In this document: positions 17,340-36,260 of the stretch, one piece after another
Layout of the letters: every line of letters starts with the position of its first letter
How positions within the stretch are numbered: position 1 is the stretch's first letter
Assembly: GCF_947503125.1 (NCBI RefSeq)
Contig: NZ_CANNCR010000012.1
Location: 1-64,000 of the forward strand
Reading direction: 5' to 3'
Source: an uncultured Metabacillus sp.
Lineage (GTDB): Bacteria > Bacillota > Bacilli > Bacillales > Bacillaceae
DNA: 64,000 nt
Position numbers and translations under genes: made by a program
Notes under the pieces: generated by a model
Seen by the model: only the letters and a program-made list of their open reading frames with translations
The model's database searches: none
Told to the model about the DNA's origin: nothing

Positions 17340-17368
17340 TTGACAGTAGTAAATCAGTACGCTATGAT
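17340..17368 (+). promoter_or_regulatory. sigma-A promoter of metK leader
   Basis: TTGACA (17340-17345), exactly 17 nt, TATGAT (17363-17368). A start at about 17375 would place the SAM riboswitch at the very 5' end of the transcript. Confidence 0.85.
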
Positions 17369-17383
17369 ATTTCCTTGAACGGA

Positions 17384-17776
17384 TTCTCTTATCCCGAGCT
17401 GGTGGAGGGACAGGCCCTATGAAACCCAGCAACCTGCTATAAAAGGAAAATGGCGAACTGTGCGCCTATTTATAGAGATGCTATTTTTAGCAGTTTTTTT
17501 GCCTGATCTAAGAAAAACACGGCATGATGCAAAATACATTTTGCATTATACAGTGCTTTTCTTAGATCGAGAATGATGCAAAGCATCATTCAAGCAAGCG
17601 TAAGCTTGCTAAGGCAAAAAACTCCTATCTAATACCTCTATTTACAATGCGCATACTAAAAACGGCATTTTCCGACGCAAAGGTGCTAACCTGATGCAAG
17701 GCGAAGACCTTGATCGATAAGAGCGAAAGGCTATGAACGATTACAAACCTTTCCTCATGAGGAAAGGTTTTTTTGA
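17384..17776 (+). promoter_or_regulatory. SAM-I riboswitch (S-box) with giant P3 extension
   Basis: The conserved core is complete: P1 CTCTTATC (17386-17393) with GATAAGAG (17716-17723); GGTGGAGGGAC (17401-17411), GGCCC, ATGAAACCC and GCAACC (17429-17434); GGTGCTAA (17682-17689); P4 CAAGG (17697-17701) with CCTTG (17708-17712). It ends in a terminator, so SAM should switch off metK. P3 is extraordinary: 247 nt lie between GCAACC and GGTGCT, where the family usually has a short loop. This insert folds on paper as a long helix (GGAAAATG 17445-17452 with CATTTTCC 17666-17673; TGCGC with GCGCA; AGTTTTTTTGCC with GGCAAAAAACT) opening into three hairpins, one capped by a GTAA tetraloop. Confidence 0.93.
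17745..17774 (+). terminator. metK riboswitch terminator
   Basis: AAACCTTTCCTC and GAGGAAAGGTTT form a 12-bp stem followed by seven Ts. GAAAGG (17725-17730) can pair with CCTTTC of the left arm as antiterminator when P1 is open. Confidence 0.93.
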
Positions 17777-18004
17777 TAACAGAAAAAAAGAGTATCTTCT
17801 TCATTAAAGTTTTTACTTGGAATGCATGTGGTAAAGGTACATACTACTTCTGTTCACAAAACATGCCAACGTGATTCTTTTTACTAGAAAACTAATGGCT
17901 GCTCCATATTAGGCGGGGCCAAGTTTTTCTAATTGTAATCAGACTTAGGGAAGAGTTCCGGATCAAATAGAATGTAAACGAATATGAGGAGGCAGCTTTA
18001 AATT

Positions 18005-19204
18005 ATGACTAAAAAACGTCTTTTTACTTCTGAGTCTGTAACAGAAGGCCATCCAGATAAGATTTGTGACCAAATTTCAGATTCAATCCTTGATGCTATT
18101 ATTGAAAAAGATCCAAATGCACGTGTAGCGTGTGAAACATCTGTTACAACAGGATTAGTACTAGTTGCTGGAGAAATTACAACAAGCACTTACGTAGATA
18201 TTCCAAAAATTGTTCGTGAAACAATTAAAGGGATCGGTTATACTCGTGCTAAGTATGGATTTGATGCCGAAACATGTGCAGTTTTAACGTCAATCGATGA
18301 GCAATCCCCTGATATTGCAATGGGTGTAGACCAAGCTCTTGAGGCTCGTGAAGGGCAAATGACGGATGAAGAAATTGAAGCAATTGGAGCTGGAGACCAA
18401 GGTTTAATGTTTGGTTTTGCTTGTAATGAAACGAAGGAGTTAATGCCGCTTCCAATTTCATTGGCACATAAATTATCTCGTCGTTTAACAGAGGTACGTA
18501 AGGAAGATATCCTTCCATACTTACGTCCTGACGGTAAAACACAGGTAACTGTTGAATATGATGAAAATGATAAACCCGTTCGCATTGATACAATTGTTAT
18601 CTCGACACAGCATCATCCGGAAATTTCTTTAGAGCAAATTCAACGAAACATTAAAGAGCATGTAATAAAGCCAGTTGTTCCTGCAGATTTAATTGATGAA
18701 AACACGAAATATTTCATTAATCCAACTGGACGTTTCGTTATTGGCGGACCTCAAGGTGATGCCGGTTTAACTGGGCGTAAAATCATCGTTGACACTTATG
18801 GCGGTTACGCTCGTCATGGTGGCGGTGCATTCTCTGGTAAGGACGCGACAAAGGTTGACCGCTCTGCTGCATATGCTGCACGCTATGTAGCGAAAAACAT
18901 TGTTGCTTCTGGTTTAGCTGATAAATGTGAAGTACAATTAGCTTACGCAATCGGTGTAGCACAGCCTGTTTCTATTTCAATTGATACATTTGGTACGGGC
19001 AAAGTATCAGAAGGCGTATTAGTAGATGTTGTTCGCAACAACTTTGACCTACGTCCAGCAGGTATTATTAAAATGCTTGATCTTCGTCGTCCAATTTACA
19101 AGCAGACTGCAGCATATGGACATTTTGGCCGTCATGATTTGGATCTTCCATGGGAAAGAACAGATAAAGCTGAAGTATTAAGCAAAGAAGCGTTAAATAA
19201 ATAA
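18005..19204 (+). CDS. metK: S-adenosylmethionine synthetase
   Basis: Makes SAM from methionine and ATP. The 399-aa protein has the family motifs: [13 protein letters not shown] near the N-terminus, GAGDQG, the phosphate loop GGGAFSGKD and K-x-x-x-R in the central part, and DLPWE near the end. Start ATG 18005 has GGAGG 12 nt upstream, a little far but the only candidate. A 230-nt leader follows the riboswitch terminator. Its product is the riboswitch ligand and the methyl donor whose by-product LuxS recycles. Confidence 0.98.
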
Positions 19205-35965: not shown

Positions 35966-36260
35966 TTGCATCTCGAGTCAAATTTATATAAAATAATCTT
36001 AAATCTATATACAACATGAACGGAGATAAGGAGTAGTAGTCTGCATGAATGAGTCCAGAGAGTTGACGGCTGGTGTGAGTCAATCGATTTTTGCTGATGA
36101 ACTCGCCTTTGAGTACAAATGTGAACGCCTCGTTTGGTAAAGTAATGTTTGTCGTTTATCCACGTTACGGATGTCAAAGTGGGCATGTCGCTATGCCAAA
36201 GTTGGGTGGTACCGCGGGAATTAAAACCTCTCGTCCCTGTTTGGGATGGGGGGTTTTTTC
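35966..36260 (+). promoter_or_regulatory. T-box leader of leuS (specifier CTC)
   Basis: Promoter TTGCAT (35966-35971), 17 nt, TAAAAT (35989-35994). The canonical T-box GGGTGGTACCGCGG is at 36204-36217, followed by the terminator AACCTCTCGTCCC / GGGATGGGGGGTT (about 36225-36256) and a T run. GAACTCGCC at 36100-36108 places a CTC leucine codon (36102-36104) in the specifier position on the 3' side of stem I, and AGTAGTA (36033 region) fits the AG bulge. Uncharged tRNA-Leu(GAG) should stabilise the antiterminator and turn leuS on. Confidence 0.93.

Follow-up and report, generated by a model that had tools for sequence, protein, structure and literature searches.

The metK leader described here raises the question of why a riboswitch with an apparently ordinary core should carry an outer arm of 247 nt, and whether that arm does anything beyond folding on itself. 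The analysis covered a stretch of 64,000 nt, hereafter the window, in which metK is preceded by a SAM-I (S-box) riboswitch at 17386-17776 on the forward strand. The controlled gene (18005-19204, forward strand) was recognized from its translation, and we take its product to be the S-adenosylmethionine synthetase MetK. Upstream of the riboswitch, a sigma-A-type promoter-like site (TTGACA-N17-TATGAT, 17340-17368, forward strand) agrees with the consensus at 11 of 12 positions. At the 3′ end of the leader, an intrinsic terminator (17745-17776, forward strand) is formed by an 11-pair stem at 17745-17770 followed by a T run. Since such sites were about as frequent in shuffled sequences as in the region itself (2 promoter-like sites observed vs 2.1 in shuffles, and 1 terminator-like stem vs 0.6), their weight rests on position and context; the promoter-like site is weak alone, and its position suits the leader. 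The leader at 17384-17776 has what is expected of a SAM-I element in its surroundings, namely an intrinsic terminator and a methionine/SAM gene downstream. A coding sequence inside the insert was considered and rejected, as no ORF of at least 60 aa lies across any part of 17384-17776. Elsewhere in the window, the Rfam search reported a T-box leader at 36014-36241 (127.7 bits).

The original prediction had described the S-box core as complete and normal. P1 to P4 with the conserved GGNGGAGGGAC, ATGAAACC, GCAACC and GGTGCNAA blocks are indeed present in the window's leader and conserved in its relatives. The 5′ half of the core (17386-17434, forward strand) contains the P1 5′ strand (17386-17393), J1/2 with the sequence CC (17394-17395), P2 with a K-turn-type sequence, the pseudoknot strand CAGG (17411-17414) and GCAACC, and the 3′ half (17682-17723, forward strand) contains GGTGC, the pseudoknot strand CCTG (17690-17693), P4 (17697-17712), J4/1 ending in C17715 and the P1 3′ strand (17716-17723). 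The pseudoknot between the P2 loop and J3/4, which was read by eye, is CAGG/CCTG here vs CTGG/CCAG in most other S-boxes examined. The word normal does not hold for the junctions, where J1/2 is CC rather than AA and the last nucleotide of J4/1 is C rather than A. J1/2 of CC or CT with a final C before the P1 3′ strand was found at 45 of 45 metK loci from 42 genomes, three of which were read twice. In contrast, the 16 non-metK S-boxes read in the genus, which were matched in 17 loci, had AA (15) or TA (one) in J1/2, and all 15 that could be read at the position preceding the P1 3′ strand had A there. Since the metK form recurs in relatives beyond the genus, it is a property of the family's metK leaders, independent of the insert. 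Positions 17394-17395 and 17715 represent a coordinated, metK-specific change adjoining the SAM pocket, which may retune the affinity for SAM.

The Rfam search of the whole window did not report this leader as RF00162 at the gathering score. A covariance search with the Rfam SAM-I model, which had been proposed as a check, gave 40.8 bits when run locally on the leader, vs a gathering cut-off of 44.4 bits that marks a limit of detection and is no biological feature. In this alignment the 5′ half of the core was aligned, but the 3′ half was wrongly placed within the insert. The metK leader of the sister genome G067, with identical 49-nt 5′ and 42-nt 3′ core halves and a P3 of 48 nt, scored 68.5 bits, and the insert is therefore the likely cause of the sub-threshold score. 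One insertion can hide a riboswitch from a standard covariance search, as most likely happened with this metK leader. By sequence and structure, the element is a SAM-I riboswitch for which SAM binding and termination are predicted.

The interior of P3 (17435-17681, forward strand), lying between GCAACC and GGTGC, had been correctly delimited as 247 nt, and every helix named in the original prediction recurs in the minimum free energy (MFE) fold. This fold has a free energy of -94.4 kcal/mol vs -49.6 ± 4.5 kcal/mol for 200 dinucleotide shuffles, none of which was as low (z -10.0). It consists of a trunk leading to a junction of three hairpins and includes the helices GGAAAATG/CATTTTCC, TGCGC/GCGCA and TTTTTTTGCC/GGCAAAAAA. 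Hairpin 1 (17505-17568, forward strand), in which 17505-17516 pairs with 17557-17568, reaches 27 bp if single mismatches are allowed, of which 12 bp are strictly continuous. Hairpin 2 (17571-17591, forward strand) is formed by GAATGATGC/GCATCATTC, a pattern matching 9 of the 10 long arms (at least 180 nt), and hairpin 3 (17593-17610, forward strand) has the sequence AGCAAGC-GTAA-GCTTGCT in the MFE fold, with AGCAAGC paired to GCTTGCT. No Rfam family reached its gathering score within the arm. The claim of a metK S-box with a long, self-complementary insertion in P3 was thus borne out.

It had also been suggested that the arm could be a hairpin-rich element inserted in the P3 apex, and that an assembly artefact or a high-copy repeat would speak against the prediction. 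When the insert was searched against its own genome, as had been proposed, no second copy was found. Outside metK leaders, the apex of the arm (17480-17630) gave no match with E below 0.008 in the 21 genomes of the genus, and the arm matched nothing in phage and plasmid records. Homologous arms were found at the metK leaders of relatives. An assembly artefact was rejected, with long arms present at the metK leader of nine other genomes, and a high-copy repeat does not agree with the lack of a second copy. A mobile hairpin element would suit the large length differences between sister genomes, but it has to face the missing off-site copies in the own genome, the 21 genomes and the phage and plasmid records, and the trunk motifs shared with a 143-nt arm in another member of the genus. 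This explanation was rejected, and we give it practically no chance; nor, by these searches, is the arm a dispersed repeat.

All 80 family genomes searched with the leader contained a match. In all 21 members of the genus, which is presumably Metabacillus, P3 measured at least 48 nt, and in ten at least 180 nt (48, 52, 70, 84, 86, 88, 89, 92, 95, 109, 143, 180, 187, 221, 224, 242, 243, 244, 245, 246 and 247 nt); one of the ten long arms comes from a draft genome with 89% completeness and 7% contamination (G069). Of 16 family genomes outside the genus, 15 have a P3 of 25-47 nt and one (G079) has a P3 of 126 nt; four loci outside the genus (L029, L030, L037 and L041) deviate from the P3 pattern and so have no length. 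Lengthened P3 arms were seen at three metK S-boxes outside the genus, with 161 nt in L098 (G150), 126 nt in L031 (G079) and 101 nt in L127 (G183), two of them outside the family. Given these cases outside the genus, metK S-boxes may expand P3 repeatedly.

A survey of the order covered 397 genomes, with the window's genome as the sole member of its genus, and its two search patterns were limited to the core GAARCCYRGCAACC with a P3 length of either 161-221 nt or 223-281 nt. The shorter pattern matched 19 genomes and the longer one 15. In all but two of these genomes, a closer GGTGC was already present within the first 80 bases shown; P3 is therefore of normal length in them, and the pattern had run on to a further GGTGC, such as tandem S-boxes could supply. 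Genuine P3 arms of more than 160 nt with this core type occurred in 2 of the 397 genomes, namely the window's genome and G150, a member of a different family in which the 161-nt P3 likewise belongs to a metK S-box. With long arms this rare in the order, tolerance alone leaves the long arms of the genus unexplained.

Close relatives differ strongly in arm length. On the metK gene tree (29 rows), the window's genome, G000, with 247 nt is sister to G067 with 48 nt, and G052 with 224 nt is sister to G063 with 52 nt, both with support 100/100. Eight long-arm genomes form one clade (support 99/97) in which all keep at least 180 nt, and the label 'long' needs three changes on this tree. Between G000 and G067 there were no differences in the 5′ core (0/49), the 3′ core (0/42) or the terminator (0/50), and the same was found between G052 and G063 (0/49, 0/43 and 0/52, respectively). 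The hairpins and trunk of G000 align with those of the eight clade members, and trunk motifs of the long arms recur in the 143-nt arm of G071. The simplest reading is therefore an early long arm in the genus with later losses, although gains may also have occurred. The arm would then have been present early and trimmed repeatedly by deletion, twice apparently between short repeats; by eye, the deletion borders lie at CCC in G052/G063 and at a T run in G054/G058. G056 has a shorter hairpin 1, and G058 has lost most of this hairpin, retaining mainly one side. The loops, the junction and the trunk register also vary among relatives. These relatives form a natural series, with P3 interiors of 48 to 247 nt attached to an almost unchanged core, in which one can ask how much weight the outer arm of a riboswitch carries.

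Rates of change along the leader were compared in 15 chosen, non-independent pairs from 13 genomes. The 49-nt 5′ core showed no difference in any pair, and the arm differed at 0.02-0.31 of aligned sites. Within the transcribed leader (core halves, arm, terminator and following leader), divergence was highest in the arm for 13 of 15 pairs, while in the other two (G064/G062 and G064/G066) the terminator diverged more (0.118 vs 0.054 and 0.061). In G054/G068 the arm had 18 differences at 243 sites vs none at the aligned sites of the core, terminator and following leader. Fourfold sites of metK differed at 0.06-0.49 and exceeded the arm in 12 of 15 pairs, and the 150 nt upstream of P1 diverged more than the arm in 8 of 15.

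The maintenance of pairing had been taken as a sign of selection. We scored 9 of the 10 long arms against the MFE structure of the window's own arm, leaving out G052, which is without the hairpin 2 anchor, and compared the counts with unconstrained simulations on the arm tree (300 per divergence). Non-standard cells numbered 73 of 566. The simulations gave 113.7 ± 21.9 at divergence 0.158, where 10 of 300 reached so low a count, and 96.7 ± 20.2 at 0.131, where 35 of 300 did; the observed arm divergence of 0.151 lies between these values. The arm thus stays paired somewhat better than unconstrained evolution predicts. The 73 broken cells included 49 in the trunk and 10 in hairpins 1-3. Changes on both sides of a pair were found in 23 cells and 7 pairs vs 6.6 and 2.4 in simulations at 0.158 (2 and 5 of 300 as high), and compensatory changes, the lack of which would have told against the prediction, are therefore present, though few. 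A structure fitted to the same rows gave 17 non-standard cells of 547 and 10 pairs changed on both sides, a biased and flattering count whose tree-based null carries the same bias. These data moderately support the maintenance of pairing as such, through selection or template switching.

Template switching between the arms of the quasi-palindrome during replication would keep pairing by mutation and would also generate deletions. The gain or loss of material by the arms fits this idea, as do the borders at CCC and at the T run noted by eye, but some of the changed pairs are G-U forms or single-pair swaps, which agree at least as well with pairing at the RNA level, and we consider this explanation improbable.

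The insulation of the core by the self-folding arm was tested in silico on 13 leaders, each of which was folded with its native arm, with a capped arm and with 60 shuffled interiors; the values cover P1 and P2. Mean core-pair probability was 0.607-0.632 with native arms, 0.592-0.634 with capped arms and 0.454-0.607 for the mean of shuffles, and 100 of 780 shuffled interiors over the 13 leaders reached the native value. For the window's own arm, 20 of 60 shuffles did so, and the test is hence weak there. Long P3 interiors were also observed at other S-boxes of the genus, with 176-177 nt at yitJ-like (L074 and L075) and metI-like (L073) loci and 42-117 nt at eight further S-boxes; the long ones were picked for length from the matches listed (187 counted in 21 genomes) and are no random sample. 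Six other S-boxes of the window's genome were read, of which five have 14-22 nt and one has 64 nt before a mtnK-like gene. The yitJ-, metI- and mtnK-like names are those we presume from sequence. S-box variability has reportedly been treated by Tomsic et al. in 2008.

Taken together, these results make it highly probable that the locus is a transcription-terminating SAM-I riboswitch of metK with a lineage-specific, self-folding arm of the 'variable insertion' kind at the P3 apex. The arm is nonconserved, folds on itself, sits at a tolerant apex and leaves the core unchanged, and the insulation folding supports this assignment in part. Counting against it are the better-than-null pairing, the clade of eight in which every arm stays at 180 nt or more, the rarity of arms over 160 nt in the order, the weak insulation result for the window's own arm and the two pairs with a more divergent terminator. 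The distal end of P3 faces away from the SAM pocket, so lengthening of the apex would be tolerated provided that the added RNA folds on itself without trapping the core. SAM binding and termination would proceed as in ordinary S-boxes, in which SAM binding closes P1 and the terminator forms, while without SAM an antiterminator forms and metK is read. We infer that the arm is selected at most for self-folding and that its sequence is not under selection. Most likely, it is a self-contained addition that the riboswitch tolerates, and not a second sensor, and most likely it has no role beyond folding on itself.

A second sensor, or a contact with a protein or the ribosome, had been raised in the original prediction. 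Such a role, or the binding of some other ligand, would suit the large, stable, multi-helix junction and the confinement of the arm to metK leaders in the genus genomes. However, the loops, junction and register are variable, with a remnant of hairpin 1 left in G058, no Rfam family reaches the gathering score in the arm, and sisters lacking nearly the whole arm keep an identical core and terminator. On the last ground the sensor was rejected, and we regard a conserved contact of any such kind as very unlikely. The arm could possibly be processed by RNase III or delay transcription. As a processing or stability element, its long helix would be an RNase III substrate, and cleavage of the leader would either hasten decay of the terminated RNA or trim the metK mRNA. 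Duplexes of 27-29 bp are cut by RNase III, and the longest helix, counted with single mismatches, has this length in 5 of the 10 long arms; pairing is also kept better than in the null; in the other five, however, the longest helix is merely 11-18 bp, nearly the whole arm is absent in two sister genomes, and the arm's sequence and loops vary, so that this too seems a decidedly poor prospect. Somewhat less doubtful, though still unlikely, is a functional module of one genus, in which a duplex cut by RNase III or a delay in completing P1 retunes the control of metK and becomes dispensable where other control took over. The reading as a tolerated variable insertion is the one we retain.

The leader between the terminator and metK contains two conserved stretches (17826-17881 and 17948-17966). 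A single exact copy of the motif GGGAA(N)GAGTTCCGNNTC is present in each of 48 family genomes out of 80 and in none of the other 32, and all 48 sites adjoin the metK S-box when positions are compared by eye. A close form was found in 5 of 150 genomes of the order, two of them already among the 48, in all five between the S-box and metK. The motif could fold as GGAA-(Y)GAG-TTCC. After the terminator, the leader had 1 difference at 163 aligned sites (6 gap blocks) in G069/G064, for which fourfold sites differ at 0.36, and 25 of 172 in G000/G054. The conserved stretches had no Rfam match, and 0 of their 22 predicted pairs covaried. They may be a protein or RNA target controlling metK and might repay closer study. 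The distance from GGTGC to metK is 599 nt in L023 (G060) vs 262-365 nt in the other 20 genus members, and the extra DNA of L023 flanks the first conserved stretch on both sides.

Compared with SAM-I (RF00162), the element shares the P1-P4 order, the K-turn-type P2, the pseudoknot, GCAACC/GGTGC in P3, the terminator and the place before metK; it differs in the 247-nt P3 interior, in CC and C for AA and A at J1/2 and J4/1, and in its sub-gathering score. The spermidine riboswitch, a variant of SAM-I that is likewise found upstream of a metK gene (PMC10853860), resembles our element in its SAM-I architecture and in having metK among its genes. It is set apart by being defined through changes in the binding pocket. 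In titles and the opening lines of abstracts, we found no account of a long P3 in metK S-boxes. According to the accessible portion of Barrick and Breaker (2007; PMC2258182), riboswitches carry long, nonconserved insertions that are typically stable stem-loops and leave the core undisturbed, and genuine low-scoring matches have insertions at unusual positions. The arm fits this known kind of insertion, while for its size, its junction and its rapid turnover within one genus no published account was found in the literature as seen in titles and abstract openings. With the variable insertions of that report, as far as this portion describes them, it has in common that it is long, poorly conserved and stem-loop forming, sits at a tolerant site and spares the core; its large size, fast turnover, multi-hairpin junction and large differences between sisters within a genus are its own.
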